Assembly (NCBI GenBank): GCA_016214125.1
Contig: JACRPC010000011.1
Span: forward strand, 1-64,000
Origin: Rhodospirillales bacterium
Lineage (GTDB): Bacteria > Pseudomonadota > Alphaproteobacteria > Rhodospirillales > WMHbin7
DNA: 64,000 nt
Direction of reading: 5' to 3'
A program made the position numbers and the translations under genes. The notes beneath the pieces were generated by a model that saw only the letters and a program-made list of their open reading frames with translations, did no database searches and was not told where the DNA came from. Below are positions 518 through 18,432 of this stretch, in pieces (position 1 is the first letter of the stretch; every line of letters starts with the position of its first letter).

Positions 518-1066
518 TCACTGTTCCGGATGGGCCGGGTGCCAAAGCCGAGCGGTGCCGTCCCGCTCATAGTCCTTGCCCTTGGGGAAGCTTACCAGTT
601 CGAGCTGCATGCCCCAAGGCGCAAGAAAATAGACCCAGCAGGAGCCGCCATTGGGTCCGCAGCCGGTGGGGCGGATGGTGGGCTCGCCCAACACCCGCAC
701 GCCCTGGCTTTTCAGATAAGCGACCGCCCGATCCATGTCGTCGACATAGAAGGCCAGATGATGGCCGCCGACATCGCTGTTCTTGGGCTGGGCGCGGTTC
801 TGGTCGGGCGCCTGATATTCGAAGATCTCGAAATTCGAGCCGTGCTTGCAGCGCAGGAATTTGAGCTTCTTCATTACCGTGCGGGGATGGACGTTCATAT
901 GGGTCTGCATCCAGTCGCCATCCGACTGGAACGGCCCCAATTCGTAGAAAGGCTCGCAGCCGATGACGTTGACGAAGAAATCAATCGCCTGATCGAGATC
1001 GGGCACGGTGAAGCCGATGTGATCGGTGCCCTTGAGGCCGGGCAGACCCTTGTTGTCGCCATTCAT
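518..1066 (-). CDS. VOC (glyoxalase/dioxygenase superfamily) protein
   Basis: A 182-residue vicinal-oxygen-chelate protein with two beta-alpha-beta-beta-beta modules. The usual four metal ligands are in place: His in TDHIGF, Glu in NFEIFEY, His in [11 protein letters not shown] and Glu in MQLELVSF. Family members include glyoxalase I, methylmalonyl-CoA epimerase, extradiol dioxygenases and isomerases, and the exact reaction cannot be told from sequence. The ATG at 1066 has an AGGAGGA ribosome site; the frame is open further upstream, but only over the end of the E1 gene. The gene lies 19 bases after E1 and 7 before E2. Insertion between the subunits of a dehydrogenase complex is unusual and suggests a role on the same substrate, for instance isomerising or hydrolysing the complex's substrate or product. 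Confidence 0.9.
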
Positions 1067-1085
1067 CGCATCCTCCTCCCCTTCC

Positions 1086-3278
1086 CTATTCCGCCGCCTT
1101 GGCCAGGCCGCCCTCGGCCAGCATGCGGGCGTAACCGGCCTTGATCTCGTCGGGGCCGGCGAACGCCACCCGTTCCAGCACCTTGGAGACGCTGGACGAG
1201 GCCTCGCCGCCATGCACGCGCAGAACCGGCGCGTCCAGCCAATCGAAGAAGCGGCGCTGGATTTCGTCGGCCAAGAGACCGCCATAAGAGCCGGTGAGCG
1301 GACCCTGCTCGATCACCAAGGCCCGGTTGGTCTTGCGGATGCTGGCGCCGATGGTCTCCCAATCGAGCCCGGCGCGGTCGAGCGAGCGCAGATCGATCAC
1401 CTCGGCGTCGACGCCCGAGTCCTCGGCCGCCTGGACCGCCTGCGGCGTCATGGCGAGGTAGGAAAGGGCGGTGAGCGCCCGGCCCGGCCTGGCCACCTTG
1501 GCCTTGCCCAAGGGAATGCAGTAATCGAAATCCTGGGTGGGCCCGATGCCGTCCGAATTGTAGAGCATGGTGCTTTCGATCACCAACACCGGGTCCTCGC
1601 AACGCAGCGCGCTGTTCATCAGCCCGACATAGTCGAAGGGATTGGAGGGCGCGACGATCCGCCAGCCCGGCCAGAGCGCGTAGAGCCCGGCCGGGTCCAT
1701 CGAATGCTGCGAGCCATAGCCGGTGCCGATCGCCACCTTGGTGCGCAGCACCAAGGGCACCCGCATGTCGCCACCGAACATGTGGCGGGCCTTGGCGATC
1801 TGGTTGAAGACCTGATCGGCGGCAACCAAGGTGAAATCGGGATACATCAGCTCGACCACCGGCCGGTAAGTGCCTTCCATCGCCACCCCGCCGGCCAGGC
1901 CGGTGAAGCCCTGCTCGCTGATCGGGGTGGGCAGGATGCGGTCGGGGAAGCGGGCGAACAGGCCCTTGGTGGCGCCGTTGGTGCCGCCCTTCAGGCGGTG
2001 AATGTCCTCGCCCAGGCAGAAGATGCGCTCGTCGGTCTCCATCCGCCTTGTCATCACCGCCGAGACGACATCGATGAATTTGACCGGCCCCACCGGGCCG
2101 CTCGCCGTCTCCGCTTCCTCGAAGCGGGCATCCTTGAATTCCGCCAGATCGCCGCGCACGCCCTGGTCGCGGAATTCCGGCTTCGGCCACAGCGCCGCCA
2201 CGATGCGCCGCTTGTTGCCGTCGGGCTCGGTCAAGTGCGCCGCCGCCGCCTTCATCGCCGCCTGGGCGCGGGCGCGCAAGCCCGCATCCTGCTCGGCGGT
2301 GAGGTGGTGCCTTGCGATCAGCTCGCGGGCCAGGCGAGCCAATGGATCGCGCTGGCGCCATTGCGCCTCTTCGTCCTTGGTGCGGTAGCCGAAGGCCGAG
2401 CCGGGCATGGGGCCGCTGTGATGGAGATAACGGTAAAGCTCGGCCTCGATGATCACCGGGCCTTGGCCGCTTTTCAAAATCACCAGCGCCTTCTCGGTCG
2501 CCAGCCGCACCGCCAAGGGGTCCATGCCATCCACCCGGAAGGCCGGAATGCCGAAGGCCAGGCCGCGCGCCGAAAGCCGCGTTTCCCGCGTCGCTTCGCT
2601 CACCGTCGTCGAGACGGCGTAGGCGTTGTTCTCGATGAAGAAGCAGATCGGCAGGCTCCACAGCGCCGCCAGATTCATCGATTCCGGCACCGCGCCGATG
2701 TTGGCGGCGCCGTCGCCCAGATAGGTGAAGACCACCGCGCCCTGGCCCTGGCGCTTCTTCGCCCAGGCGACGCCGTTGGCCAAGGGCACGCCGCCGCCGA
2801 CGATGGCGTTGGTGCCCAGCGCGCCGGCTTCCGCCCAGCGCAGATGCATCGAGCCGCCCCGGCCTTTGCAGTAGCCGGGCGAGAGCCCCATGATCTCGGC
2901 CAGCGAACGGGTGAGGAAATCCTGCACTGCGTCGCCGGGCGCCGACTTCAGGGGATCGTCGCCGGCCTTGGCAAGATAGGCCAGGCCCTTGGCGAGGAAT
3001 TGGTGATGGCCGCGATGCGAGCCGGTCACTTGATCGCCCGGCCCCAGAAGATCGATCGAGCCGACCGCGCCGCCCTCCTGGCCGATCGAGGTGTGGGCAG
3101 GACCATGCACCAACCCTTCGCCTTCCAGTTCCAGCACCGATTCCTCGAAGGCGCGGATCAGATGCAGCCGGTCGAGCATGCGCAGCCCGACCAAGGGATC
3201 GAGCGCATCCCAATCCTTGGGCGTGGTGCGGATGTCCTGCCAAGGCACTTCAGGGGTCAGGGCGACGATCTTGGGCAT
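1086..3278 (-). CDS. Fused alpha/beta E1 thiamine-diphosphate dehydrogenase (PDH/acetoin/BCKDH type)
   Basis: A single 730-residue chain joins the E1 alpha and E1 beta subunits of a 2-oxo-acid or acetoin dehydrogenase. The alpha half (about 1-370) has GSHRGHHQF, GKGRGGSMHL and the thiamine-diphosphate motif GDGAANIG...N with ENNAYAVST. The beta half (about 385-730) has FCLGEDIHRLKGGTNGATKG, PISEQGFTGLAGGVAMEG and the transketolase C-terminal domain with EQGPLTGSYGG. The complex decarboxylates or cleaves a keto compound and passes the acyl group to the E2 lipoyl arm. I place the start at ATG 3278, which has GGAGG 8 bases upstream; a GTG two codons earlier is too close to that site. Precedent: in Azoarcus anaerobius a PDH-like complex (BqdLMS, recalled from the literature) cleaves hydroxybenzoquinone in resorcinol degradation. 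The transhydroxylase-like genes nearby make a similar role worth testing. Confidence 0.92.
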   Translation of the reverse strand: MPKIVALTPEVPWQDIRTTPKDWDALDPLVGLRMLDRLHLIRAFEESVLELEGEGLVHGPAHTSIGQEGGAVGSIDLLGPGDQVTGSHRGHHQFLAKGLAYLAKAGDDPLKSAPGDAVQDFLTRSLAEIMGLSPGYCKGRGGSMHLRWAEAGALGTNAIVGGGVPLANGVAWAKKRQGQGAVVFTYLGDGAANIGAVPESMNLAALWSLPICFFIENNAYAVSTTVSEATRETRLSARGLAFGIPAFRVDGMDPLAVRLATEKALVILKSGQGPVIIEAELYRYLHHSGPMPGSAFGYRTKDEEAQWRQRDPLARLARELIARHHLTAEQDAGLRARAQAAMKAAAAHLTEPDGNKRRIVAALWPKPEFRDQGVRGDLAEFKDARFEEAETASGPVGPVKFIDVVSAVMTRRMETDERIFCLGEDIHRLKGGTNGATKGLFARFPDRILPTPISEQGFTGLAGGVAMEGTYRPVVELMYPDFTLVAADQVFNQIAKARHMFGGDMRVPLVLRTKVAIGTGYGSQHSMDPAGLYALWPGWRIVAPSNPFDYVGLMNSALRCEDPVLVIESTMLYNSDGIGPTQDFDYCIPLGKAKVARPGRALTALSYLAMTPQAVQAAEDSGVDAEVIDLRSLDRAGLDWETIGASIRKTNRALVIEQGPLTGSYGGLLADEIQRRFFDWLDAPVLRVHGGEASSSVSKVLERVAFAGPDEIKAGYARMLAEGGLAKAAE

Positions 3279-3428
3279 GGGCACTTCCTCCGGAACCGTT
3301 CGGCTTTGGCAGGTTGTTCAAGCCTCGTGCCAGCCGTTCAAGGTTGCAATTCTTTGATTTTACGAAGCTTATCGGTATTTGCCGCCCTTCGCCAGAGCGG
3401 TCGACTGTCGCAAAATGAGACAGATTGG

Positions 3429-4412
3429 TCAAGGCGGTCGAACACGCAGCCTTGCGGTCTTGGCCGACAGGCGCTCGATCGTCTCCACCAACTCCTCGAT
3501 CATTGCCGCCTTTTCGGCGGTGGCGATCACCACCAGCCGGCTTTGGCGATCGGCGCTCGGCCACCGATCAAGGGTGATCGGATCGTGCAGCAAAGTCTGG
3601 GCGGCCTGGAGGACCAGCGGGCGATCCGGCGCCTCCGCCAAACAGACGATCCCTTTGACCCGCAGGAGATCGGGACCGAGATTCTGCTCGAGCGCCGCCA
3701 GGATGCGATCGACGGTGGCCTGGGGAATCGGCTGGTCGCGGGTGATCGTGACGGCGCGGATGCGCGGATCGTGATGGTGATGGTCCTCGGCCGCATCGGC
3801 CAGCGGCCGGCCGATGATGTCGAACATGAGCGACGGATCGAGCCGAGCGGCATCGATCACCAGAGCCGCCGGATTGAGCCCGGCCAGCCGGCCGCGCAAG
3901 GCAGCCACCGTATCGGGAGCGGCGAGATCGGTCTTGGTGATCACCAGCCGGTCGGTCAACGCCGCCTGCTCGGCCGCAACCGGATGAGCGTCGAGCGTCG
4001 CCCAGCCGTTGACCGCATCGACGGTGGCGATGATGCCGTCGAGATGATAGCGCCCGCTCACCACCGGCTCGGCCAGGATCACCTTGATGAGCGCCTTGGG
4101 ATCGGCCAGGCCCGAAGTTTCGATCGCCAGGCGGCGAAAGGGCGGCAATTTGCCGGCCGCCCGGCGCACCGCCAGATCGACCAGGGTGTCGACCAGATTG
4201 CCGCGCACCTGGCAGCACAGACAGCCGCCTTCCAGCAGCACCACCGTATCGTCGGCTTGTTCGATCAGATGGTGATCGAGCCCGATGGCGCCGAATTCGT
4301 TCACCACCACGGCGGTGTGGGCGGCGCGTTGGTCCTTGAGCAGGCGGTTGAGCAGCGTCGTCTTGCCGCTGCCCAAAAAGCCGGTGATCAGGCTTACCGG
4401 GATGCGGGCCAA
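3429..4412 (-). CDS. CobW/COG0523-family GTPase (metal chaperone-like)
   Basis: A 327-residue G3E-family P-loop GTPase. It begins with Walker A GFLGSGKTT, followed by the conserved EGGCLCC (CxCC metal site), ETSGLADP, the guanine-specificity motif ITKTD and a histidine run (EDHHHHDPR), then the CobW C-terminal domain. Such proteins insert or deliver metals to target enzymes. The start is taken as TTG 4412 (MARIPVSLITG), because no ATG or GTG precedes the P-loop in this frame and the frame upstream only overlaps the dehydrogenase gene. It follows the hydroxyisobutyrate-dehydrogenase-like gene by 53 bases and probably belongs to the same transcript. It may metallate one of the neighbouring metal enzymes (VOC, cupins); that is inference. 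Confidence 0.88.
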   Translation of the reverse strand: MARIPVSLITGFLGSGKTTLLNRLLKDQRAAHTAVVVNEFGAIGLDHHLIEQADDTVVLLEGGCLCCQVRGNLVDTLVDLAVRRAAGKLPPFRRLAIETSGLADPKALIKVILAEPVVSGRYHLDGIIATVDAVNGWATLDAHPVAAEQAALTDRLVITKTDLAAPDTVAALRGRLAGLNPAALVIDAARLDPSLMFDIIGRPLADAAEDHHHHDPRIRAVTITRDQPIPQATVDRILAALEQNLGPDLLRVKGIVCLAEAPDRPLVLQAAQTLLHDPITLDRWPSADRQSRLVVIATAEKAAMIEELVETIERLSAKTARLRVRPP

Positions 4413-4465
4413 GATCGTTGATCGCCTAGCTGCTGCACCCTGGGAACCCCGAAAGTCATTGGCCT

Positions 4466-5368
4466 CTAGTCCTTGGGTTTGGCGCGGGCAGAAAGGCCCG
4501 CCAGATCTTCCATCAGGGTGACGTAGGAGAAGAAATCCTTCTCGCCCCGCCCCATCGCCACCAGGGCGCCCATGAACTGGCGGACCATGGCGGTCACCGG
4601 CATCGGCACGTTGGCGGCCCGCGCCGTTTCCAGGGCCAGATCGAAATCCTTGACCATCTGGGCGGCGGTGAAGGCGGGGGCGAAGTCGCGATTCTTCAGC
4701 ATCTCGGCCTTGTAGCCGGTCAAGGGCGAGGCGACGACGCTGGCGTTGATGATGTCGATCATTTGGCGCCACTCCATGCCGCCGCCTTCGCCGAAGGCCA
4801 GGGCCTCGCCGATGGTGGCGGCGGTGACGCCGATCATCAGATTGATGGCGAGCTTGAGATGGCGGGCTTCCTCGGCCGGGCCGACATGGTGGATCGCCTT
4901 GCCCATCGCCTCGAAGATCGGCCTGTGGGCCTCGAAGACCGGCTTGGGGCCGGAAACGAAGATGGTGAGCGCCCCTTTCGAGGCCAGCATGGTGCTGCCT
5001 GAAACCGGCGCCCGCAGATAGGAGGCGCCGGCGCCATTGATCCAACCCGCCACTTCGGCCGAGGCGGCCGGCGAGACCGTGCTCATGTCGATGTAGAGCG
5101 CACCCTTCTTGATGCCCGCCTTGACCGCCGCCCCCACCTCGCGCAGCGCCGGATCGTCGGAGATCATCGAGATGACGACATCGGATTGCGCCGCCAATTC
5201 GGTCATACCACCGGCGGCCTTGGCGCCGGCCTCGACCAGGGGTTTGAGTTTGCCGGCGGTGCGGTTGTAGACGACCAGCGGATAGCCGGCCGCCTGCACC
5301 TGCTGGGCCATCGGGGTGCCGATCTTGCCCAGGCCGATCCACCCCACGGTGGGTTTCGTTGCGCTCAT
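4466..5368 (-). CDS. 3-hydroxyisobutyrate dehydrogenase-family NAD(P)-dependent oxidoreductase
   Basis: A 300-residue beta-hydroxyacid dehydrogenase. The Rossmann motif GLGKIGTPMA sits at the N-terminus, the substrate-binding DMSTVSPAASAEV and APVSGS follow, and the catalytic lysine lies in LKLAINLM (about residue 170). The family oxidises 3-hydroxy acids (3-hydroxyisobutyrate, tartronate semialdehyde, 4-hydroxybutyrate) or reduces short aldehydes. The ATG at 5368 directly abuts the stop of the upstream M24-type gene at 5370, which shows translational coupling. Within this island it could act on a ring-cleavage product, but the substrate is unknown. Confidence 0.9.
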   Translation of the reverse strand: MSATKPTVGWIGLGKIGTPMAQQVQAAGYPLVVYNRTAGKLKPLVEAGAKAAGGMTELAAQSDVVISMISDDPALREVGAAVKAGIKKGALYIDMSTVSPAASAEVAGWINGAGASYLRAPVSGSTMLASKGALTIFVSGPKPVFEAHRPIFEAMGKAIHHVGPAEEARHLKLAINLMIGVTAATIGEALAFGEGGGMEWRQMIDIINASVVASPLTGYKAEMLKNRDFAPAFTAAQMVKDFDLALETARAANVPMPVTAMVRQFMGALVAMGRGEKDFFSYVTLMEDLAGLSARAKPKD

Positions 5369-5369
5369 C

Positions 5370-6623
5370 TCAGAACACGTCGCAGCCGGGCAGACCGCAG
5401 GAGATCAGCCGGTCCGAGGGGAAGCAGGTGATGACCTGGCAGCCGTCCTTGGTGACGACGACCTCTTCTTCGATGCGCGCCGCGCCCGAACCGTCGGCGG
5501 CGCCCTTCCAGCATTCGACGGCGAACACCATGCCCTCTTTCAGCACCGTGTTCTGGCCCTGGAAGCGCTTGGTGAAGATCGGCCGTTCCCAAAGCGACAG
5601 GCCGATGCCGTGGCCGTATTGCAGCAAGAAGGCCTCTTCCTCGTCCTTGTAGCCGAATTCCTGGGCGTTGGGCCAAACCGCCGCCACCTGATCGACGGTG
5701 ACGCCGGGGCGAATGACGTCGATCGCCGCGCTCACCCATTTCGAGCAGGTCTCGTAGGCCTCGATCTGGTGCTTGTTGGGCTCGCCGCAGATGAAGGTGC
5801 GGTAATAGCAGGTGTGGTAGCCGTTGTAGGAATGCATGATGTCGAGGAACACCATGTCGCCCGGCTGGATGATGCGGTCCGAGAAGGTGTGCGAATGCGG
5901 CTTGCCGCGCGGGCCGGCCACCGAATTGACGCACTCGACGCGCTCCGATCCCAGCCGGAACAGGCGATCATGGGCGATCGCCACCAATTCGTTCTCGCGC
6001 GTGCCGGGGCGGATGGCCCGCGAAATATCGACATAGGTGGCGTCGACCATGCCGGCCGCCAGCTTCAACAGCTCGATCTCGTCGGGGGTCTTGATCTCGC
6101 GGGCATCCAGCATCGCCTGCTGGCCGTCAACGATCTCGATCCCCTGCCTCTCCAGCGCCCGCAGCATCGGCAGTTCCAGCCCGTCGATACCCAGCGGTTC
6201 CTTGTCGATGCCGTAATGGACCAGCATCTGTTTGATTTGTTTGGCGAAGTCTTCCTCGACGCGCATCCGGGGCGGCAAGGCACCCTGCATGATGCTGATC
6301 GGCGCGGCGACGCGATCAGCGATCCAAGGCGAACTGATGCGCTTGGCGGGCGGCGCCGGGTCCCACAGGAAGGGCAGGCCGTCGCGCGGGCAAAGCGCAT
6401 AGCGGTCGAACTTGTCGCGCGCCCATTCGCCGATGTGGGTGCCGGTGACGTAGCGGATGTTGTCGAAATTGAAGCACAGCACGCCGCCCAGCCCGGCCTG
6501 CCGGATCGCCGCCTGGGCGCGTTCGAAGCGCTCGCGGTTGAGCCGGGCGAAATCGATGCCCTGCTCCCAATCCTTGGCCATCGTGCCCCAGGCCGCCGTC
6601 GAATGCGGTCGATTGTACTTCAT
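5370..6623 (-). CDS. M24-family 'pita-bread' hydrolase with degenerate metal site (creatinase/prolidase-like)
   Basis: A 417-residue protein with the creatinase N-terminal domain and the M24 pita-bread catalytic fold. In true metallopeptidases of this family the first metal motif reads DxGxxxxGYxSDxTRT. Here it is LDIMHSYNGYHTCYYRTF, so the second Asp is Cys. The motif GHGIGLxxHE has become GHGIGLSLWE, while the later Glu residues in FAVECW and ARIEEEV remain. The metal centre is therefore probably incomplete, as in creatinase, which works without metal. A non-peptidase hydrolase or lyase role in the catabolic pathway is more likely than a Xaa-Pro aminopeptidase. The ATG at 6623 has AGGAGG 5 bases upstream. 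First gene of the minus-strand operon, divergent from lysR. Confidence 0.85.
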   Translation of the reverse strand: MKYNRPHSTAAWGTMAKDWEQGIDFARLNRERFERAQAAIRQAGLGGVLCFNFDNIRYVTGTHIGEWARDKFDRYALCPRDGLPFLWDPAPPAKRISSPWIADRVAAPISIMQGALPPRMRVEEDFAKQIKQMLVHYGIDKEPLGIDGLELPMLRALERQGIEIVDGQQAMLDAREIKTPDEIELLKLAAGMVDATYVDISRAIRPGTRENELVAIAHDRLFRLGSERVECVNSVAGPRGKPHSHTFSDRIIQPGDMVFLDIMHSYNGYHTCYYRTFICGEPNKHQIEAYETCSKWVSAAIDVIRPGVTVDQVAAVWPNAQEFGYKDEEEAFLLQYGHGIGLSLWERPIFTKRFQGQNTVLKEGMVFAVECWKGAADGSGAARIEEEVVVTKDGCQVITCFPSDRLISCGLPGCDVF

Positions 6624-6954
6624 TCGATCCTCCTTCTCGTCGGGCCACCTGAAAAGCGGTGGCCCTGTTTCGCCGATCCTGCCACAGCTTCGGCCGAACC
6701 GGAATTGCCCGATTGCCGCTTGCACGGCCTTGTCCGGGCGAGCAAGCTCCATGCCAAGAGCCTCGCCCGGGCGGAGGCCCGAAAGACCACCATCATGGCC
6801 CGTCCTTTCGATAATGGTGGGGCGAGACGCCCGATACAACTGTATCAATATGACATGGGGCCACCGCCCCGCCCCGATCCCGCGTCCGGGATTGGCGTTC
6901 CCCGCCAAGCCGGGATAGCATCAGGCGGATTTTCGCGGATTTTCCGGAGCCCCG
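6624..6954. promoter_or_regulatory. Divergent control region between the M24 gene and lysR
   Basis: This 331-base stretch holds no convincing gene. It contains three inverted repeats: 6642-6665 (8-base arms GGGCCACC/GGTGGCCC, 8-base loop, in the leader of the minus-strand operon just before its ribosome site), 6734-6770 (9-base arms CCGGGCGAG/CTCGCCCGG) and the AT-rich palindrome 6833-6846. The AT-rich part around 6830-6860 is the likeliest place for the two opposed promoters. Confidence 0.6.
6833..6846. promoter_or_regulatory. Candidate LysR operator (perfect palindrome)
   Basis: GATACA-AC-TGTATC is a perfect 6-base inverted repeat with a 2-base centre, and it embeds the T-N11-A pattern (6835 to 6847) typical of LysR-type binding boxes. 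It lies 109 bases before the lysR ATG, in the shared divergent region. Confidence 0.6.
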
Positions 6955-7872
6955 ATGAAACTCAGCCAGTTGCGTCATCTGGTGGCGGTCGCCGAGGCCG
7001 GCACTGTCCGCCAGGCGGCCAAGAACCTCAATCTGTCGCAATCCTCGGTGACCAAGAGCATCCAACAGCTCGAGGCCGAGCTGGGGGTCGCGCTCTTGAT
7101 CCGGGGCTCGCACGGCGTCACCCCGACCCCGGCCGGTCTGGTGCTGATCGGCCGGGCCAAGGCCATCGAGGCGGAACTGCGCCACGCCCGCAACGACATC
7201 GACGCCGTCCAGGGCGCCAAATCGGGGGAAATTCGGGTGTCGGCCTCGCCCTCGGTGGCCATGCTGCTCTTGCCCAAGGCGATCGGCGCCTTCCGCCGCG
7301 CCCGCCCCCTGGTCAGCTTCGCCATCGAGGAAGGAGTCTATCCCGATGTGCTGCCGGCCTTGCGCCGGGGCGAGCTTGATTTCGCCATCTGCCTGGTGCC
7401 GGAAGCGCCGCGCGACGACGAACTGGTCTTCGAGACCCTGGTCAAGGATCGGCTGGTGCCGGCGGTGCGGGCCGACCATCCACTGACCCGCAAGGGACGC
7501 CTGACCCTGGCCGATCTCCTGGACCGCGATTGGGTAGTCTACCGGCGCACCCGCACCGGCCGCGACGTGGTCGAACAGACCTTCCGCGCCAACAAGCTGG
7601 CGCCACCGGCGCGCACGCTGGAATGCGCCTCCTTCGCCGGCGCCCTGGCGCTGGTCGAGCAGGGCGATTTCATCACCTTGGTCCCCACCCAGCTCTTCGC
7701 CGAGCGCCCCCGGCGGCCGGCGCTGGTGCCGCTCAAGCTCGATTCGCCGATGCCGCCCTGGAACGTGGCAGCGATCAGCCGCGCCCGTCATTTTCTGTCG
7801 CCGGTCTGCCAAGCCTTCCTCGACGAATTGCATCGCACCGCGCAAAAGATTAAAACATCCGCCGGGCGCTGA
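6955..7872 (+). CDS. LysR-family transcriptional regulator
   Basis: A 305-residue LysR protein with the winged helix-turn-helix at about residues 1-60 (KLSQLRHLVAVAEAGTVRQA, SVTKSIQQLEAELG) and a periplasmic-binding-like effector domain from about 90. LysR regulators usually control the divergent operon and respond to a pathway compound. Here that means the M24/dehydrogenase/E1/E2 operon, and perhaps the molybdoenzyme operon that starts 122 bases downstream on the same strand. A palindromic box in the divergent region fits autoregulation. The ATG at 6955 follows CGGAGCCCCG. Confidence 0.92.
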   Translation: MKLSQLRHLVAVAEAGTVRQAAKNLNLSQSSVTKSIQQLEAELGVALLIRGSHGVTPTPAGLVLIGRAKAIEAELRHARNDIDAVQGAKSGEIRVSASPSVAMLLLPKAIGAFRRARPLVSFAIEEGVYPDVLPALRRGELDFAICLVPEAPRDDELVFETLVKDRLVPAVRADHPLTRKGRLTLADLLDRDWVVYRRTRTGRDVVEQTFRANKLAPPARTLECASFAGALALVEQGDFITLVPTQLFAERPRRPALVPLKLDSPMPPWNVAAISRARHFLSPVCQAFLDELHRTAQKIKTSAGR

Positions 7873-7994: not shown

Positions 7995-10900
7995 ATGCGC
8001 GCGGGCGAACTGAAACTGTCAATCTTGCTCTTCGGCTTGGCGCAGGCCTTGCGCTTCAACGCCCGGTGCCATCCCCAATTCGCCCAACGCTTCAAGGAAC
8101 GCAATCTGGTCGCCCAGATCCGCACCATGGATCGCCGGGTCGGGCGCTGGTACGAATTCAAGGACGGCAAACTGAACTCGGGCCGGGGCCTGCACGCCAA
8201 ACCCGACATGAGCATCGTCTTCACCACCGCCCAGCGCGCCGCGGATCTGCTGACGCCGCCCATCAACCAGCTTGAGCAGATCGAGGCGATCAAGAACTTC
8301 AACCTGATGATGGACGGGCCCGAGGACGTCACCCTTTGGTTCACCCAGACGGTGATGATGATGCCGACGCTGGGCTGGGACTACGGCATCGACCAGCCCG
8401 ACGGCACCCGGCGCTTCGTCTCGCACACCAATGGCGGGCCGCTCTTCGTCTACGTCAAGGACGGCAAGATCGTGCGCATGACGCCGATCGAATTCACCGA
8501 CGAGGATGCGCCCTCGTGGGTCATCAAGGCGCGCGGCCGCAGCTTCACGCCGCCGCGCAAGGCCACCATCGCGCCGCACACCCAATGCCAGAAGACGACG
8601 CTCTATTCGCCCGACCGCCTGCTCTATCCGATGAAGCGGGTCGATTTCGATCCCAACGGCAACCGCAACTGCCAGAACCGGGGCGTCTCGGGCTATGAGC
8701 GGATAAGCTGGGACGAGGCGCTGGGCATCGTCGCATCCGAAATCAAGCGGGTGAAGCGCGATTTCGGCCAGGGCGCCATCATGCTCAACCACGGTTCGCA
8801 CCACACCTGGGGCAACATCGGCTATTACCTGAGCGCCGCCTACAAGCTGTTCAACGCCATCGGCCACACCCACGTCATCCACAATCCGGATAGCTGGGAA
8901 GGCTGGTATTGGGGCGCCACCCACCATTTCGGCTACAGCATGCGGCTGGGCCAGACCGAGACCTATTCCTGCGTCGAGGATCTCCTCAAGGAGGCCGAGA
9001 TGGTGGTCTTCTGGTCGGCCGATCCCGAGGCGACCAGCGGCTCCTACGCCGCCTTCGAGGGCACCTCGCGCCGGATGTGGCTGAAGGAATTGGGGATCGA
9101 AATCGTCCACATCGATCCCTACTACAACCACACCGCCGGCCTGTTGGGCGGCAAATGGCTGGCGCCCAAGCCCGGCACCGACGCCGCGCTCGCCATGGCG
9201 ATCGCCCAGGTCTGGATGGCCGAAGGGCTTTACGACAAGGACTATGTCGCCAAGCGTTGCGTCGGCTTCGACGTCTGGGCCGACTACATCATGGGCAAGG
9301 AAGACGGCGTTGCGAAAACGCCGGAGTGGCAGGAATCGGAGACCGGCATTCCGGCGCGCGAGGTGCGCGCGCTGGCCCGCCAATGGGGCAAGAAGAAGAC
9401 CTATCTCGGCGCCGGCGGCTGGGGCAACGGCCATGGCGGCGCCTGCCGTTCGGCCACCGGCATCCAGTGGGCGCGGGCCTTGGCCTGCCTGATGGCGATG
9501 CAGGGCATGGGCCGGCCGGGCGTCAATTATGGCCATCTGCAATGGGGCACGCCGATCGACGTGCGTTTCTATTTTCCCGGCTATGCCGACGGCGGCATGT
9601 CGGGCGATCTCGAAGGCACCGGCATCGCCATCAATCTCTACCAACGCATGCCGCAATTGCCGTCGTTCAACCCCACCGCCCAGAAGATTCCGCGCCTGCG
9701 CATTCCCGAAGCGATCCTGGAAGGCAAGGCCGAGGGCTATCCCTGGAACGGCAAGACCATCGAAGGCCAGTTCCAGAAATTCTCCTACCCGCAGGCCGGG
9801 CACGCGCTGGTGCAGATGATCTACAAGTATGGCGGCGCCTCGATCGGCACGATGACCGACACCAACCGCTATGTGAAGGCCTATCGCACCGACAAGCTGC
9901 CCTTCGTCGTCAACCAGTCGATCTGGTTCGAGGGCGAGGCCAAGTTCGCCGACATCCTGTTGCCCGCCTGCACCCAGTTCGAGCGCTGGGACATCAGCGA
10001 GTTCGGCGGCACCGGCGGTTACGCGCTGCACGGCCAGACCCAGATGAATCACCGCGTCGCCCTCGTTCAGCACAAATGCATCGAGCCTTTGGGCGAATCG
10101 AAATCGGACTACCAGATCTTCCTCGAATTGGCCCAACGCCTGGGCCTCTCGGCCTATTTCTCCGAGGGCATGACCGAGCTCAATTGGGTCAAGCGCTGCT
10201 TCGACGCCTCCGACCTGCCCAAGCACATTTCCTGGAAGGAGTTCTTGAAGCGCGGCTATTTCGTCATTCCGCCCCTGGAAGAGGAACGGCGCGATCCGGT
10301 GGCGATGCGCTGGTTCTACGAAGGCCGCAAGAAGGACGTGCCCGAACCGCACCCGCTGCCCGGCGATTACACCGAAACCTTCCTGGAGGGTCTGCAGACC
10401 CAATCGGGCAAGTTCGAGTTCGAATGCTCGAGCCTTAAGCGCTTCGACGCCAACGATCCCGAACGGCCGCCGATCGTCAAATACCTGGCCTCGTGGGAAG
10501 GGCCGCAGGCCAAGGAGCTTTACGACCGCTATCCCCTGCAGTTGATCTCGCCCCATCCGCGCTTCAGCTACCACACCATGAGCGACGGCAAGGACAGCGC
10601 GGTCAACGACATCCGCGAACACCGGATGCGGGTGAACGGCTACGATTACTGGGTGATCCGCATCAACGCCGACGACGGTCGGGCGCGTGGCCTCAAGGAA
10701 GGCGACCTCATCCGCATGTTCAACGATCGCGGCGCTGTGGTGGGGGCGGCGCATCTCACCCAACGCCTGCCGCGTGGCGTCGTCCACTCCTACGAATCCT
10801 CGGCGGTCTACGATCCGGCCGGCGAGCCCGGCTATTCGGTCGATCGCGGCGGCTGCGTCAATCAGCTCACGCCCCGGCGCTCGATCGCCGCCAAGGTCAC

Positions 10901-11000
10901 CGGCACGGCGGCCAATTCCTGTCTGGTCGAGATCGAACCTTGGGATGGCAAGGGCGAGCTAAGGCCCAAGACCCAGCCCGCCAGCGCGGCGAGGGCCTAG
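7995..11000 (+). CDS. Transhydroxylase-like molybdopterin enzyme, large subunit, with N-terminal SCP2-like domain
   Basis: A 1001-residue DMSO-reductase-superfamily protein. Residues about 165-1000 match the pyrogallol-phloroglucinol transhydroxylase/resorcinol hydroxylase branch. There is no N-terminal Fe-S cysteine motif, which is right for this branch. His269, Tyr277, Asp299, Ser300 and Trp301 have exactly the spacing of the Pelobacter acidigallici active site as I recall it (His144, Tyr152, Asp174, Ser175 as molybdenum ligand, Trp176). Subtracting about 125 residues gives the family's usual length. The additional N-terminal 125 residues ([18 protein letters not shown]-like [21 protein letters not shown]) resemble an SCP2 hydrophobic-ligand domain. 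Expected role: moving or adding hydroxyl groups on a phenolic ring in the cytoplasm; no Tat signal is seen. ATG 7995 has GGAGG upstream. Partner subunit directly follows. Confidence 0.87.
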
Positions 11001-11002
11001 CC

Positions 11003-11848
11003 ATGAGCAAGTGGAACCTGATCATCGACGTCGCCAAGTGCTTCAATTGCAATCTGTGCGCCTTGGCCTGCCACGACGAGTATTACGACAACGACTTCCC
11101 CGGCGTCGCCGCCTCGATGCCAAGGCGCGGCCATCGCTGGATCGAGATTCACCAGAAGGAGCGCGGCCAGTATCCGATGGTCGATGTCGTCTATTTGCCG
11201 GTCACCTGCAACCACTGCGACGAGCCGCCCTGCCAGAAGGCGGCGACCAACGGCGCGGTGACCAAACGGGCCGACGGCATCGTCCTTATCGATCCGGTGA
11301 AGGCGAAGGGCCAAGAGGCCATCGCCGAGGCCTGCCCCTACAAGGCGGTGTTCTGGAACGACGAGACGAACATCCCGCAAATCTGGCCCTTCGACGCCCA
11401 TCTGCTCGATTCCGGCTGGACCAAGACCCGCGGCACCCAGGTTTGCCCGACTCAGGCGATGCGCTCGGTCAAGCTCGACGACAGGGCGATGCGCGACCTG
11501 GCCACCCAAGAGAAGCTGGAGCCGCTGCACCCCGAATTCGGCACCAAGCCGCGCGTCTGGTACAAGAATCTGGCGCGCTGGCAGAAGGCCCTGGTCGGCG
11601 GCACGGTGGCCGGCCCCATCAAGGGCGTGGTCGAATGCGTGGCCGGCGCCCGCGTTTCGCTCGAGCGCGAAGGCCAGAAGCTGGGCGAGGCGCTCACCGA
11701 CACCTTCGGTGATTTCCGCCTCGACGGCCTCGACCTTGCGGGCGGCTATCGCCTGTCGGTTTCGGCCCCGGGCTTTGCCGACCAGGCGGTGGCCTTCGAT
11801 CTCACCGACAGCACCTATCTCGGAACCATCACCCTGGTCGGGCGCTAG
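11003..11848 (+). CDS. Transhydroxylase-like small subunit: three-cluster ferredoxin with C-terminal beta-barrel domain
   Basis: A 281-residue electron-transfer subunit, close to the 275 residues of the Pelobacter transhydroxylase beta chain. Cysteine groups CFNCNLCALAC, CNHCDEPPC, CPYKAV and CPTQAM can hold three [4Fe-4S] clusters. Residues about 195-281 (VAGPIKGVVECVAGARVSLE, DTFGDFRLDGL, GYRLSVSAPGF) form a Cna-B/transthyretin-like beta-sandwich. That domain is a hallmark of this subunit family and is absent from ordinary ferredoxin subunits of DMSO reductase. The start ATG 11003 lies 2 bases after the large-subunit stop, so the two are translationally coupled. Confidence 0.88.
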   Translation: MSKWNLIIDVAKCFNCNLCALACHDEYYDNDFPGVAASMPRRGHRWIEIHQKERGQYPMVDVVYLPVTCNHCDEPPCQKAATNGAVTKRADGIVLIDPVKAKGQEAIAEACPYKAVFWNDETNIPQIWPFDAHLLDSGWTKTRGTQVCPTQAMRSVKLDDRAMRDLATQEKLEPLHPEFGTKPRVWYKNLARWQKALVGGTVAGPIKGVVECVAGARVSLEREGQKLGEALTDTFGDFRLDGLDLAGGYRLSVSAPGFADQAVAFDLTDSTYLGTITLVGR

Positions 11849-11885: not shown

Positions 11886-12305
11886 ATGGCCTACATCTTC
11901 CATCAGGACGAATTGCCCAAGCTGGTTTCGGTGGTGCCGGGACGCGAGCGGGTCTTCTTCGTCAGCAAGGAGCTGACCCAAATCGACGACATGCTGGCCG
12001 GCATCATGCGCTACGCCAAGGGCGCCTCGTCGCCCTATCACTTTCACAAGAACTGCGAACACTTCTATTTCATCATCGAAGGCGACGCGACGGTGGAAAC
12101 GCCCGACGGCGTTACCGACATCGAGCCCGGCACCATGGTCTTCATCCCGGCCGAGGAGAAGCACCGCCTGCGCGCCCCCAAGGACACACCGCTCTTCTAT
12201 TTCGAATTCCAGGCGCCCAACCGCTTCCAGACCACCATTCTCGACGGCACGCCCGACGATCTGCGCTGGGAGAAGGTGGACGGCAAGATCTGGATTCAAA
12301 GCTAG
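11886..12305 (+). CDS. Small single-domain cupin, first of a pair
   Basis: A 139-residue cupin with the first metal motif SPYHFHKNCEHFYFIIEGD and the second motif PGTMVFIPAEEKHRL, so His, His, Glu and His metal ligands are present. Such proteins act as isomerases, decarboxylases, dioxygenases or plain binding proteins. ATG 11886 has AAGGAGCGG upstream and lies 37 bases after the ferredoxin subunit. The position suggests action on the product of the molybdoenzyme; the reaction is unknown. Confidence 0.85.
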   Translation: MAYIFHQDELPKLVSVVPGRERVFFVSKELTQIDDMLAGIMRYAKGASSPYHFHKNCEHFYFIIEGDATVETPDGVTDIEPGTMVFIPAEEKHRLRAPKDTPLFYFEFQAPNRFQTTILDGTPDDLRWEKVDGKIWIQS

Positions 12306-12326: not shown

Positions 12327-12677
12327 ATGAGCACCACCTTCATCGACACCGGCAAGCTGCCGCGCGTTGCCCTGCCCGCCGGTCAGGGCGCGATGACCGA
12401 AATTCTCAACCGCGATCTGTGCGGCGCCAAGAACGTCGTCGGCACCCTGCGCTGGCTCGACACGAGCGACAGCTTCGCCGCCGAGGCCAAGGCCGACACC
12501 CATCAGCTTCTCTATTTCATGGAGGGCGACGGCACCATCACCCTGGAAGGCAAGGATTACGACGTCGCCAAGGGTGCCGGCATCTATCTCGGCCCGAAGG
12601 AGACCGCCCGCATCCGCCCGCGCGGCAAGGGCGGCGTCAAGCTCTTCCATCTCGTGGTGCCGAAAATCAAGGACTAA
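12327..12677 (+). CDS. Small cupin-fold protein, second of a pair
   Basis: A 116-residue cupin-like protein (THQLLYFMEGDGTITLEGKD, GAGIYLGPKETARI). The first motif keeps a single His and the canonical HxH is missing, so a classical metal site is unlikely. It may be a catalytically altered partner of the preceding cupin, for example as a heterodimer. The ATG at 12327 follows AAGGGAGAAACGCC, 21 bases after the first cupin's stop, in the same operon. Confidence 0.8.
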   Translation: MSTTFIDTGKLPRVALPAGQGAMTEILNRDLCGAKNVVGTLRWLDTSDSFAAEAKADTHQLLYFMEGDGTITLEGKDYDVAKGAGIYLGPKETARIRPRGKGGVKLFHLVVPKIKD

Positions 12678-12728: not shown

Positions 12729-12752
12729 ACTTTGGGGGCAATCGGCGTGTCA

Positions 12753-15125
12753 ATGTGGTCCTGGCTGCGCAAATTCGGCCTGCAAGGGCGGGTGCTGGTC
12801 ACCACCGTCGTGGTGTTCGGCATCTCGGTCGCCGCGGCCTTGTTCGCCTTCCAGGTCATCGTCAACGAAACGATCATCCAACTCGGCATGCGGATCGCCG
12901 AGAAGCAGGTGCTGTTCGATCGCGCCCGCAGCCTGCAGCCGCTGTTGCGCGAAGTGGCGCTGGCGCAAAAGCTGGCGCAAGAACCCAGCATCCTGGCTTG
13001 GGCGAAGAACGAGGCCGACCCACGCCTTTGCCAGCAAGGCCTTGAGGAACTGGAAGGCTTTCGCCGCGTCTTTCACGACAAGAGCTATTTCTTCGTCAAT
13101 CACGCCTCGGGCAATTACTACTTCAACAACCGCGAAAGCCAATACACCGGGCAGGAATTGCGCTACGCCATCGAGTCCGGCAACCCGCGCGATAGCTGGT
13201 ATTTCGCAACCATCCAAACCAATCTCGATTGCCTGCTGAACGTCGATTACGACGAGCCTCTGAAAGTCACCAAGGTCTGGATCAACTGCCCGGTGCGCGG
13301 CGACGGCCGTATTCTCGGCCTGATCGGCACCGGCATCGAACTCACCGATTTCATCCGCGATGTGGTCGACATCAAGCAGGCCGGGGTCGAGAACATCTTC
13401 GTCGATCCCTCGGGCGCCATCCAGGCGCACCGCGATCCGGCTTTGATCGACTACAACACGTTGGCCAAGGGCATCGAGCAGCGCCGCACCATCTATCAGC
13501 TTCTCGACAGCGGGCGCGACCGCGAATCCTTTCGCGCCCTGCTCGATTCCCTGCGCGACGGGAAACTGACGGTGGCCACCCGTTTCCTGTCGATCGGCGG
13601 GCGGCGCCATTTGGCGGGGGTGGCGTTCCTGGATGGCATGGGCTGGTACAACGTCACCTTGATGGATCTCGACGTCTTGATCGGCTCGGGCCATTTCACG
13701 CCGATCGCCATCCTTCTTGCCGGCGCCCTGCTGCTCACTTTGATCGCGGTCGCCTTCCTGGTCCACCGTTTCCTTCTCGTCCGCCTCCAGCGGCTGGCCG
13801 GCGCGGTCGAGCGCCTGAAGACCGGGGATTATGCCCCGCCGCCCGTCGATCCCGACAGCGACGAAATCGGCCGCCTCTCGCAGGGCTTCCGGCTGATGGC
13901 GGAGCGGGTGGCCAACCACACCCAAACCCTGGAATCGGAAGTGGCGCGGCGTACCGCCGATCTGGCGCGCGAGGTCGAGGAACGCCGGGCGGCCGAAGAG
14001 CGGGTGCGCGACAGCGAACGCCATCTGCGCGCCATCCTCGATGCCGCGCCCTTTCCGATGCTGGTGTCCCGCCTGAACGATGGCGTCTTGCTGTTCCTCA
14101 ACGGGCCGGCGCATGCCCTGTTGGGCCTGGCGCCGGGAGCCGGCCCCGGCCATCGCACCGTCGATTTCTACGCCAACCCGGATGAGCGACAAGAGCTGGT
14201 GCGCCGGCTTTATGACACCGGCATGGTGCTGGGCACCGAGTTGCGCCTGCGCCGGCCCGATGGCCGTCAATTGTGGGCCCTGCTTTCGGCGGTGCGTTTC
14301 CGCTACGGCGCCGAGGATGCGGTGATCATCTGCGCCAACGACATTTCGGCCCGCAAGGAGCTGGAGCGGGCGCTGCGCGAAGCCCGCGACCGTTCCGACG
14401 AGGCGCTGACCGCCCAAAAGCGAATCCTTGAGGAGCAGCGCAAGTTCGTCGCCATGTTGTCGCACGAATTCCGCTCGCCCCTGGCGGCGATCAAGATCGC
14501 GGCGGAAATGGCCATGATGAACGCCGCCGAACTTCCCGAGAAGACGGCGGATCGCTTAACCCGGATCGGCGAGCGCGCCCAGCATCTCTACAAGATGGTC
14601 GATGTCTTCCTGGCCTCGGAAGCCCTGGAGCATGGCCAATTGGCGGTGAAGCGCGAAGCCCTGGCGCTAGGCGATTTTCTTCGGGGCGTCGTCGAACGTT
14701 CGCCGATACCCGACGCCGTCCAACGCGTCGCGATCGCCGTTTCGCCGCCCGAGGCCGCTTTCGATCTCGATGACGAGCTGTTCGGCGCCGCGCTCGCCAA
14801 TCTGATCGAGAACGCCTTGCGCTATTCGCCGCCCGCCTCGCCGGTTGCCGTCGAGGCCGCCCTCAAGGACGATGGCTTAACGATCGTCGTTCGCGACCAA
14901 GGCCGCGGCATGAGCGCCGAGGAAATCGAGCGTGTCGGCACCCAATATTTCCGCGCCAAATCGGCCGAAGGCACCAAGGGCGCTGGGCTTGGGCTTGCCA
15001 TCGCCTGCAAGGTCGTTGCCGCCCATGGCGGGCGGATCGACATTGCCAGTCAGGTGGGCCAGGGCACCACCATGACCGTCCGCCTTCCCTACGCCGGCGC
15101 CCCTTCGGAACCGGCCCCCAGATAG
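12753..15125 (+). CDS. Membrane sensor histidine kinase (Cache-HAMP-PAS-HisKA-HATPase)
   Basis: An orphan sensor kinase of about 790 residues. Order: transmembrane helix (about 13-35), a periplasmic double-Cache-like region (KSYFFVNHASGNYYFNN, WINCPVRGDGRILGLIGTGI), a second helix (about 313-335), HAMP (336-390), PAS (about 430-545), HisKA with phospho-acceptor His near residue 570 (MLSHEFRSPLAAIKI), and HATPase (NLIENALRYSP, DQGRGM, GAGLGLAIACKVV). Cache domains bind small extracellular ligands, so it probably senses the island's substrate. No response regulator is adjacent. The start is uncertain: ATG 12753, GTG 12747 (better spaced from GGGGG) or TTG 12732. The 3' end overlaps the convergent livF-type gene by 37 bases. 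Confidence 0.88.
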   Translation: MWSWLRKFGLQGRVLVTTVVVFGISVAAALFAFQVIVNETIIQLGMRIAEKQVLFDRARSLQPLLREVALAQKLAQEPSILAWAKNEADPRLCQQGLEELEGFRRVFHDKSYFFVNHASGNYYFNNRESQYTGQELRYAIESGNPRDSWYFATIQTNLDCLLNVDYDEPLKVTKVWINCPVRGDGRILGLIGTGIELTDFIRDVVDIKQAGVENIFVDPSGAIQAHRDPALIDYNTLAKGIEQRRTIYQLLDSGRDRESFRALLDSLRDGKLTVATRFLSIGGRRHLAGVAFLDGMGWYNVTLMDLDVLIGSGHFTPIAILLAGALLLTLIAVAFLVHRFLLVRLQRLAGAVERLKTGDYAPPPVDPDSDEIGRLSQGFRLMAERVANHTQTLESEVARRTADLAREVEERRAAEERVRDSERHLRAILDAAPFPMLVSRLNDGVLLFLNGPAHALLGLAPGAGPGHRTVDFYANPDERQELVRRLYDTGMVLGTELRLRRPDGRQLWALLSAVRFRYGAEDAVIICANDISARKELERALREARDRSDEALTAQKRILEEQRKFVAMLSHEFRSPLAAIKIAAEMAMMNAAELPEKTADRLTRIGERAQHLYKMVDVFLASEALEHGQLAVKREALALGDFLRGVVERSPIPDAVQRVAIAVSPPEAAFDLDDELFGAALANLIENALRYSPPASPVAVEAALKDDGLTIVVRDQGRGMSAEEIERVGTQYFRAKSAEGTKGAGLGLAIACKVVAAHGGRIDIASQVGQGTTMTVRLPYAGAPSEPAPR

Positions 15126-15814
15126 GCGCGCCGGATGTGCGGCTGGGCCAGCAGCTCGGCCGGCGAGCCTTGGGCAACGATCCGCCCCTCCTCCAGCACA
15201 TAGGCGCGGCGGGCGATCTCCATCGCCATGGCGACGTTCTGCTCGACCAGCAGCACCGCCACGCCATCTTGGTTGATGGCGCGAATGACGGCGAACATCT
15301 CCAGCACCACCGAGGGCGCCAGACCCAGGGACGGCTCGTCGAGAAGAAGCAAGTTGGGCTTGGCCATCAGGGCACGGCCGATCGCCACCATCTGCTGCTG
15401 ACCGCCCGACAGCGTGCCCGCCGGCGAATCCAAACGCTGGCCGAGAACGGGAAAGATCGCCAACACTTTCTCAAGAGTCTCGGCCCGGCGGACCTTGGCC
15501 TGGCGTCGATAGCTTCCCAATTCAAGATTCTCGCGCACCGTCATCGACACGAACAGGCGGCGGCCCTCGGGCACCAGGGCGATGCCCTGATCGCAAAACT
15601 GATGCCGACCAAGCCGGTTGAGTTCCCGCCCGTCCATCGCCAGTCGGCCGCCGGCAATCGGATTGATGCCGGCGATGGCGTTGATCAGCGTGGTCTTGCC
15701 GGCACCGTTGGGGCCGACCACGCACACCAACTCGCCGGTGCCAATGGCCAGCGACACGTCCCAAAGCGCGGTGGCGGCGCCATAGGCGACCCGAAGGCCC
15801 TCGACCTCAAGCAT
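15089..15814 (-). CDS. Branched-chain amino acid-type ABC transporter ATPase (LivF-like)
   Basis: A 241-residue ATPase of the HAAT uptake family: Walker A GPNGAGKTT, signature LSGGQQQM, Walker B LLLLDEPSLGLAP, and the LivF-typical VPEGRRLFVSMTVRENL. ATG 15814 is preferred over an upstream TTG, with GGGAAG 7 bases before it. It overlaps the end of the permease-ATPase fusion by 8 bases. Systems of this family carry amino acids, urea, amides or aromatic acids; the island context favours an aromatic or phenolic compound. Confidence 0.93.
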   Translation of the reverse strand: MLEVEGLRVAYGAATALWDVSLAIGTGELVCVVGPNGAGKTTLINAIAGINPIAGGRLAMDGRELNRLGRHQFCDQGIALVPEGRRLFVSMTVRENLELGSYRRQAKVRRAETLEKVLAIFPVLGQRLDSPAGTLSGGQQQMVAIGRALMAKPNLLLLDEPSLGLAPSVVLEMFAVIRAINQDGVAVLLVEQNVAMAMEIARRAYVLEEGRIVAQGSPAELLAQPHIRRAYLGAGSEGAPA

Positions 15815-17555: not shown

Positions 17556-17556
17556 G

Positions 17557-18411
17557 CTAGGTCCGCTTCCCCCGGACCAGCAGGACCAGGATCAAGAGCG
17601 AGAACGACACCAAGGGCGCCCAGGCCGGAGCAATGACCGCCATGGTCAGGGCTTCGCTGATGCCGATCACCGCCCCGGCGATCAAAGGCCCCAGCGGATT
17701 GCCAAGCCCGCCGATCATCACGGCGGCAAAGACGACGCCGATCCAGGCGTAGATCTGGGCCGGCGCCAGGGTGTAGCTGAGCGCCAGGCAGACGCCGGCC
17801 ACCCCGGCGCAGCCGGCGGAAAAGCCCGACAGCATCAGGGCCAGACGGCGTTCGTTGACGCCGAAGGCGGCGGCGATCGGCCCATCCTCGGCGGCGGCGC
17901 GCATCGCCTTGCCGAGATCGGTGTGGCGCAGAATCGCCCAGGTGCCGATCGAGAGCAGCGCCGCCATCACCAGGGTGAGGAATTCGGTGAAGGGAATGTA
18001 GAAGGCACCCAGCTTGTACTTCATCGTTCCGTAATGGGTTTCCATCCGCCGGTAATCGGCGGTCCAGATGCCCTGGATCAGGCTCTCGATGATGACGGTC
18101 AGGCCGAAAGTGACGAGAAGCGAATTGAAGGGGGTGATGGCGAAGCGCGCCAACAGGGCGTGCATGCCGACGCCGAACAGGAAGAAGGCCGGTGCGACGA
18201 TGAACAGGGTAAGCAGCGGATCGAGGCCGCCGACGCTGGTCAATTGGTAGGTCAGGTAGGCCCCAAGGAAGGCCAGGGCGAAGTGCGCCAGATTGATCTG
18301 GCGCAACATGCCCCAGGACAGGCTGAGGCCAAGCCCGAGGAGACCGTAGAGGGCGCCGATGAAAATCCCCGACAGGACCGCTTGGCCCAGCAGCGTCGGA
18401 CTTGGCATCAT
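17557..18411 (-). CDS. Branched-chain amino acid-type ABC transporter permease (LivH-like)
   Basis: A 284-residue inner-membrane permease with about eight hydrophobic helices. Typical LivH motifs are GALYGLLGLGLSLSWGMLRQ near the N-terminus, the loop RAAAEDGPIAAAFGVNERR, and AWIGVVFAAVMIGGLGNPLG. It forms the second membrane half with the fused permease-ATPase. The gene is 21 bases after the binding-protein gene and 1 base before the fusion gene. Confidence 0.92.
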   Translation of the reverse strand: MMPSPTLLGQAVLSGIFIGALYGLLGLGLSLSWGMLRQINLAHFALAFLGAYLTYQLTSVGGLDPLLTLFIVAPAFFLFGVGMHALLARFAITPFNSLLVTFGLTVIIESLIQGIWTADYRRMETHYGTMKYKLGAFYIPFTEFLTLVMAALLSIGTWAILRHTDLGKAMRAAAEDGPIAAAFGVNERRLALMLSGFSAGCAGVAGVCLALSYTLAPAQIYAWIGVVFAAVMIGGLGNPLGPLIAGAVIGISEALTMAVIAPAWAPLVSFSLLILVLLVRGKRT

Positions 18412-18432
18412 CGGCGCCCCCGGATCAGACGA

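Follow-up and report, generated by a model that had tools for sequence, protein, structure and literature searches.

Why would a putative hydroxyl-transferring molybdoenzyme for phenols carry a domain of the kind that binds lipids? The question is raised by two adjacent genes on contig JACRPC010000011.1 (assembly GCA_016214125.1) of a Rhodospirillales bacterium, of which positions 1 to 64,000, the 64,000-nucleotide stretch analysed here, are called the window. The first gene (7995..11000, + strand, ATG start) encodes a large subunit (LS) of 1001 amino acids (aa), which its open reading frame, Pfam domains and Protein Data Bank (PDB) match identify as a molybdenum (Mo)-bisPGD-type enzyme of the AhtL/PgtL (pyrogallol hydroxytransferase) group. 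The second, on the same strand (11003..11848), starts after two intervening bases and encodes a small iron-sulphur (Fe-S) subunit (SS) of 281 aa. To our knowledge, few enzymes hydroxylate phenol rings without O2. We judge the chances to be even that this pair performs O2-independent hydroxyl transfer, with the N-terminal SCP2-like domain of LS presenting a hydrophobic or bulky phenol, and that the reaction is redox-neutral in the lineage in which SS has lost cluster ligands.

The large subunit and its N-terminal domain

The core of LS is of the transhydroxylase type. PF21423 (AhtL-like_1st) matches residues 148-201 with 98.2 bits against a cut-off of 27, and is followed by the Molybdopterin (PF00384) and Molydop_binding (PF01568) domains. 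The closest solved relative is the pyrogallol hydroxytransferase large subunit PgtL of Pelobacter acidigallici (4v4c_A; 1024 bits, residues 140-986), followed by dimethyl sulfoxide (DMSO) reductase at about 250 bits. A full-length AlphaFold2 (AF2) model (pLDDT 82.7, pTM 0.87) superimposes on 4v4c_A with Z 43.9 and a root-mean-square deviation (rmsd) of 1.9 over 838 residues, 52% of them identical, the next entry following at Z 33.5 (VIA-align). An identity as DMSO or trimethylamine N-oxide (TMAO) reductase was rejected, those entries having Z 28.6-33.5 compared with 43.9 for PgtL; NCBIfam S/N-oxide reductase models match LS far under their cut-offs. An earlier note, made from the sequence by itself, had proposed a transhydroxylase-type core, and the PDB match, the superposition and the core tree described below all bear it out.

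The note had also given the PgtL active site correctly: His269, Tyr277, Asp299, Ser300 (of the Mo-ligand type) and Trp301, encoded within 8799..8897 (+), align with PgtL His144, Tyr152, Asp174, Ser175 and Trp176, and the equivalents of PgtL Tyr404 and Tyr560 are kept as well. PgtL His144, Ser175, Trp176 and Tyr404 are invariant in 17 + 57 + 5 fused and 9 + 10 unfused sequences, with Tyr152, Asp174 and Tyr560 nearly so across the same set. As the five residues are common to relatives with and without the SCP2-like domain, they define the family and cannot separate substrates; the active-site argument thus holds as a family marker but says nothing of the substrate, and the idea that these residues prove pyrogallol to be the substrate was dropped.

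Other pocket positions do differ from PgtL. The equivalent of Trp354 is His480 in the window, while other fused large subunits have Phe, Tyr, Leu, Val or, in one case, Trp there. PgtL Trp387 corresponds to Gly513 (9531..9533, +) in the family alignment, a position that is Gly in 103 of 104 fused and Trp in 25 of 30 unfused sequences; PgtL Thr390 corresponds to Gln516 (Gln in 102 of 104 fused, Thr in 19 of 30 unfused). Further near-fixed differences of the fused clade are His311, His372 and Tyr305. Judged from the aligned sequences, the Trp387-to-Gly change, from large to small between two active-site loops, would fit a wider pocket.

Ahead of the core, residues 1-132 (7995..8390, +) form a domain that PgtL lacks. 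Modelled alone with AF2 from 80 aligned sequences (pLDDT 88.7, pTM 0.81), it has a predicted SCP2-like fold: Foldseek ranks 1-38 are all SCP2 proteins or SCP2-like alkylsulfatase domains (best E 1.7e-5), UbiJ-type SCP2 domains being among the nearest folds. The best VIA-align match is the SCP2 entry 8af3 (Z 12.7, rmsd 2.5, 112 residues aligned), and rows 1-29 are all SCP2 or alkylsulfatase SCP2-like (Z 8.2-12.7 over 98-120 residues, 10-16% identity), the first other fold appearing at Z 7.4. Alkylsulfatases of the SdsA1/Pisa1 type also carry their SCP2-like domain within a longer enzyme chain. The window domain thus shares its predicted fold with SCP2, UbiJ and SdsA1/Pisa1, and differs in its fusion to the N-terminus of a molybdoenzyme.

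The sequence relation is faint. Pfam SCP2 (PF02036) gives no match to the window sequence at E ≤ 1, its gathering cut-off not being reached; residues 1-135 searched alone against Pfam and NCBIfam do not match SCP2 either, and a PF02036 search of the source genome matches a different locus only. SCP2 is nevertheless the commonest Pfam family among the 80 members, 19 of which match at E ≤ 1, below the threshold (best E 0.0016), while the 80-sequence alignment, used as a profile against the PDB, gave no significant match (best E 0.22). Because the relation stays below the Pfam cut-off, we speak of an SCP2-like fold and not of a PF02036 member. The note's assignment of about 125 N-terminal residues to SCP2 therefore stands for the predicted fold, from AF2, Foldseek and VIA-align, but not for the Pfam model.

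The fused clade

Fusion of the two parts, of which the earlier note knew no described example, is not unique to this bacterium. The domain is present in 79 of 80 relatives among the matches listed, and L067, the one without it, is truncated by its contig; the search that gave these loci used one pattern from the domain itself and is neither complete nor neutral, 80 being a lower bound. Core-only searches, with no domain in the query, scored at most four (order) and two (class) candidates per genome, and their counts are lower bounds too. Among 385 genomes of the class, at least nine have a match, the window's own included; all nine class-level matches lie in open frames of 993-1030 aa, and the eight others all match the domain profile. 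Among 199 genomes of the order, again with the source genome, at least 30 have a core match at E ≤ 1e-150. In three of these (G619, G596, G511) the match starts at residue 139-141 and the frames, of 843-869 aa, are without the domain; five further matches that start further in are partial and were left unclassed. PF21423 over 398 genomes of the phylum, with up to 16 candidates scored in each, gave at least two matches, the window's own and one under the cut-off, and was not used for prevalence.

In a core-only tree of 76 rows (45 of the 104 fused and 30 unfused rows, rooted on one TorA row), the 45 fused rows form one clade, with an SH-aLRT support of 100 and one change. A bootstrapped tree of 39 rows (22 of 104 fused and 17 of 30 unfused, the named outgroup not forming one side of a branch) supports the clade at 100/100. 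Forty core rows had been dropped beforehand, 37 as duplicates and three (L025, L146, L162) as short, L162 being re-added as outgroup. The sister of the fused clade is an unfused group that includes PgtL (support 93 in the larger tree, 89/65 in the smaller, where PgtL groups with four rows at 85/84). In the 76-row tree LS groups with PgtL and apart from TMAO/DMSO reductases, agreeing with the family placement that the note had made; the long unfused row L211 also falls outside the PgtL group, with a long-branch warning there. No unfused row lies inside the fused clade in that tree, from which the cut L067 and the broken L163 were left out. Since the fused rows form one clade on the core tree, the SCP2-like domain was apparently gained once in this sample, as far as the aligned sequences tell. 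L163, on a Sinorhizobium terangae plasmid, is a broken gene: its SCP2-like part (594-998) and core (2501-5017) lie about 1.5 kb apart in different frames.

A phylum label is available for 77 of the 104 distinct fused cores: Pseudomonadota 60, Chloroflexota 4, Actinomycetota 3, Thermodesulfobacteriota 3, Acidobacteriota 2, Bacillota 2, Myxococcota 2 and Bacteroidota 1. The clade carries labels from at least six phyla. Many of these cores come from metagenome bins, and the labels Bacteroidota (L076), Bordetella parapertussis (L008) and Myxococcota (L021 and L022, titled Deltaproteobacteria) were not relied on.

Open-licence literature on SCP2 or sterol binding together with molybdopterin or transhydroxylase yielded no description of the fusion, which is no proof of its absence. 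Pyrogallol hydroxytransferases are noted in two Chloroflexi papers, whose main texts are without the words SCP2 and sterol (PMC4959651, PMC3971608), and a paper on catechol dehydroxylases sets pyrogallol hydroxytransferase apart from the enzymes studied there (PMC7028382).

Some genomes carry several such enzymes. Two actinobacterial metagenome bins (L200 and L201; G946 and G948) contain 16 and 13 AhtL-like large-subunit matches, the richest sets seen, and may represent specialised polyphenol degraders. In L195, L196, L197 and L199, a fused and an unfused LS copy, each with an SS, lie within about 20 kb on one contig, an arrangement that suggests two successive hydroxyl-transfer steps; in L198 the unfused copy is cut at the edge. 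Near unfused LS copies there are also distant Mo-enzyme-like genes that carry a GCHGGCG motif (L156, 5816-8062; L195, 2-1378), possibly for a second Mo enzyme of the pathway.

Lost cluster ligands in the small subunit

The best match of SS is the Pelobacter small subunit PgtS (4v4c_B, E 4.4e-64), with which it shares a C-terminal regulatory-like barrel (PF13620, 36.3 bits against a cut-off of 32.3). The length and barrel that the note had described are correct; of the three Fe-S motifs it had counted, two are complete [4Fe-4S] ligand sets. Whereas PgtS has 12 cluster cysteines, for three [4Fe-4S] clusters, the window SS keeps nine, with Trp128, Asp131 and Gly144 at the lost positions. Trp128 and Asp131 belong to a WPFD motif (11384..11395, +) and replace PgtS Cys126 and Cys129. 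We sorted the PgtS cysteines into the ligand sets 13/16/19/149, 23/126/129/145 and 68/71/76/109, using a NarH-type pattern and the pattern of loss; this grouping, and the order of the clusters, are presumably those of NarH-type subunits.

An alignment of 93 small subunits, in which five rows read a locus for the second time, falls into two groups. Cys126 and Cys129 are present in 35, which have Cys at each of the 12 positions. The other 58, window included, always have Trp at 126 and Asp at 129. Position 145 remains Cys in 14 of the 58 and is lost in 44, where Gly (29 rows), Ala (13), Pro (1) or Val (1) takes its place; position 23 is lost in 35 and remains Cys in 23, including the window. All eight further cysteines are kept except for Cys16 in three rows (L062, L071, L075); there it is Ser, leaving a second cluster also short of a ligand, a possible further decay of the electron wire. 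The letters flanking the WPFD site align without gaps (IPQKCTFCAHLL in the 12-Cys relative L030 from Moorella, IPQIWPFDAHLL in the window), so the ligand loss is no alignment artefact.

On an LS tree of 114 rows (FastTree), the loss is a single change with support 99, separating 57 lost-ligand from 19 full rows. The lost-ligand fused rows are labelled Pseudomonadota (47) or Bacteroidota (1), or have no label (9); 17 full fused rows span seven phylum labels, with a single one from Pseudomonadota (L039). LS residue 278 (8826-8828), immediately after the active-site Tyr277, is Tyr in lost-ligand and Trp in full fused enzymes, and is the sole LS site that separates the two at 90% or more on both sides.

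At 14 loci no SS was found. In two of these (L024, L055) an SS begins but runs past the end of the stretch, six (L018, L025, L026, L036, L054, L056) end with LS or at most 16 bases past it, and L058 and L064 have 352 and 773 bases left after LS; SS is sometimes separated from LS by other genes. In the remaining four (L023, L027, L028, L044) there is no SS in the roughly 6 kb left after LS, and a P450-family gene directly follows. The genomes of L023 (G962) and L027 (G963) each have one clear SS, beside another LS copy that is fused in G962 and partial in G963.

Reaction, alternatives and gene context

How might these parts work together? LS-SS would belong to the pyrogallol-phloroglucinol transhydroxylase group and, with Mo (or tungsten), transfer hydroxyl groups on phenols independently of oxygen. 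We infer that hydroxyl transfer takes place at the Mo, and that the SCP2-like domain, given its predicted fold, most likely binds a phenol bearing a hydrophobic or bulky group and delivers it to a substrate site that may be opened by the Trp-to-Gly change at PgtL 387 and altered at PgtL 354. The gene context and the near fixation of this change in the fused clade lend some weight to the putative capture of a hydrophobic phenol. UbiJ is the nearest functional parallel to the domain; PMC9499169 proposes that its SCP2 domain binds the tail of ubiquinone intermediates. The hydroxylated product would then be ring-opened by enzymes encoded alongside. Probable participants in the window, where their genes are associated with LS, are the cupins, the dehydrogenase, the M24-family protein and the 2-oxoacid-dehydrogenase-type complex. 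In the window lineage one [4Fe-4S] cluster of the small subunit has lost ligands; if the NarH-type order applies, it is probably the central cluster of the wire. A wire so cut would be compatible with a hydroxyl transfer that exchanges no net electrons with an external acceptor.

A broader proposal, which we offer tentatively and with some doubt, is that the fused enzymes are a widespread, uncharacterised molybdoenzyme subfamily with a lipid-binding domain for hydrophobic phenols, and that the proteobacterial branch dismantled its wire stepwise, first the cluster ligands and then, in one subgroup, the adjacent SS, because the reaction is internal and redox-neutral. If so, a subfamily of apparently single origin, found beside ring-cleavage genes of aerobic and anaerobic type, would account for a large unassigned share of aromatic turnover. 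The ligand-loss variants offer a natural test of why a transhydroxylase, which needs no net electrons, carries an electron-transfer subunit, and stepwise loss with a redox-neutral reaction would answer what its Fe-S clusters are for.

Several observations weigh against the first of these proposals. An hhalign comparison of the domain with a set of stand-alone SCP2 proteins (A5) gave no match (probability 0.3%) and one with another set (A6) a weak match (probability 25%, 29 columns, E 7.7e-4); sequence-profile comparison thus establishes no homology, the SCP2-like fold being a predicted one. The 17 distinct fused loci that keep all 12 cluster cysteines show that the fusion itself is not tied to a cut wire, and Cys23 of the affected ligand set is still present in the window. 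Among the 57 lost-cluster large subunits, Asp is absent at PgtL 174 in two and Tyr at 152 in two. Neighbourhoods differ strongly among clades and most loci are without any named ring-cleavage set, making one common substrate unlikely; substrates probably differ among the fused enzymes.

Could the enzyme instead be a hydroxylase proper, of the kind of RhLS (the resorcinol hydroxylase of Azoarcus anaerobius), with oxygen from water and two electrons leaving through SS to an acceptor? This is possible, though we hold it unlikely. PMC10100899 places RhL in the Ser-coordinating group of PgtL and describes both as hydroxylating members. SS has also been kept, two ligand sets being intact in 55 of the 58 lost-cluster small subunits. 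A 2-oxoacid-dehydrogenase-type complex is encoded near the window LS, as are E1 relatives near five other large subunits and an E2 relative in L199, and such a complex, pyruvate-dehydrogenase-like, belongs to the Azoarcus resorcinol pathway. In the window lineage the electrons would pass straight from the first cluster to a new partner. Against this reading, the lost ligand set would, in NarH numbering as we take it to apply, bridge the remaining clusters; nor does an SS follow LS in the four loci with about 6 kb left.

The domain, rather than holding the substrate, might bind a quinone or lipid and so serve as electron partner or anchor the enzyme at the membrane, which we consider improbable. 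The UbiJ-type domains among its nearest folds are in keeping with this role, as is the modelling of UbiJ-UbiK2 at the membrane interface in PMC9499169, and the first helix of the domain has a moderately amphipathic stretch (largest Eisenberg moment 0.37). Yet the domain is kept in the lost-ligand lineage and in the group without an adjacent SS, and the Trp387-to-Gly change accompanies it. Least probable of all, in our estimation, is a merely structural domain, for folding or oligomer contact, on an enzyme that acts on small polyphenols as PgtLS does. Conservation is lower in the domain than across LS as a whole (mean column identity 50% in 80 sequences and 69% in 60, respectively), and SCP2-less paralogues occur in the same stretches (L195, L196, L197, L199). 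On the other hand, six of its residues (R51, A98, K100, G108, T119, G131) are invariant in the 80 sequences, and the fused clade includes no unfused row.

Gene context was assessed by clustering the open reading frames around LS in 86 loci and annotating representatives; stretch lengths differ, so absences mean little. Fused LS genes adjoin varied ring-cleavage sets, of phloroglucinol-pathway, homogentisate and extradiol type, the window having a 2-oxoacid-dehydrogenase/cupin block. Two or more of the clusters SDR, 3HCDH, cyclase and BKACE are found in nine of the 86 loci, and all four in L021, L022 and L077; these are, at the family level, the four families of the Clostridium scatologenes phloroglucinol pathway (PMC10470551), a set not seen around the window LS. 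Inspection by eye of the Moorella locus L195 showed SDR-, BKACE-, 3HCDH- and cupin-like frames between its fused and unfused LS-SS pairs. Homogentisate dioxygenase (HgmA) and fumarylacetoacetase occur in five of the 86 (L023, L026, L027, L028, L044), and HpaB in three. In L023, L027, L028 and L044, HgmA and fumarylacetoacetase lie upstream of the fused LS and the P450-family gene downstream. Within 9 kb of LS, plasmids of Ensifer, Burkholderia and Salipiger encode VOC and FAH proteins together with outer-membrane transport or OmpW proteins, and the first two also an acyl-CoA synthetase; these neighbours suggest hydrophobic substrates. The readable contexts are in keeping with a ring hydroxylation that precedes ring opening.

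In the window, SS is followed on the + strand by cupin A (11886..12305; PF07883), with relatives near LS in Magnetospirillum SS-4 and others, and cupin B (12327..12677; Pfam). Upstream of LS lies a LysR-type regulator (6955..7872, +; PF03466/PF00126), whose cluster is present in 16 of the 86 loci. The genes beyond it are on the - strand: an M24 peptidase-family protein (5370..6908, start uncertain; PF00557), a 3-hydroxyisobutyrate-dehydrogenase-like protein (4466..5368; PF03446 and PF14833), a CobW-type GTPase (3429..4400, approximate ends; PF02492 and PF07683), a fused E1 alpha-beta protein of a 2-oxoacid-dehydrogenase-type complex (1086..3284; PF00676, PF02779, PF02780), a VOC/glyoxalase-superfamily protein (518..1285, start uncertain, overlapping the E1 frame; PF13669) and an E2-type protein with lipoyl and E3-binding domains, cut by the contig end (1..591; PF00364, PF02817). 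Among 27 other stretches or sets tested, relatives of the E1 fusion (68-74%), the VOC protein and the LysR regulator recur jointly near LS in L002, L011, L012, L016 and L019, and M24 relatives (81-87%) in four of these five (absent from L002) and in L037; the stretches of L007 and L020 showed no E1, VOC or M24 relatives. L199, from Dehalococcoidia, has E2-, M24- and HIBADH-type relatives near LS. Directly after the window cupins there is a PAS/HAMP histidine kinase (12732-15125), followed on the opposite strand by a branched-chain-type ABC transporter set (15089-19635), which could possibly provide sensing and uptake for the LS pathway.

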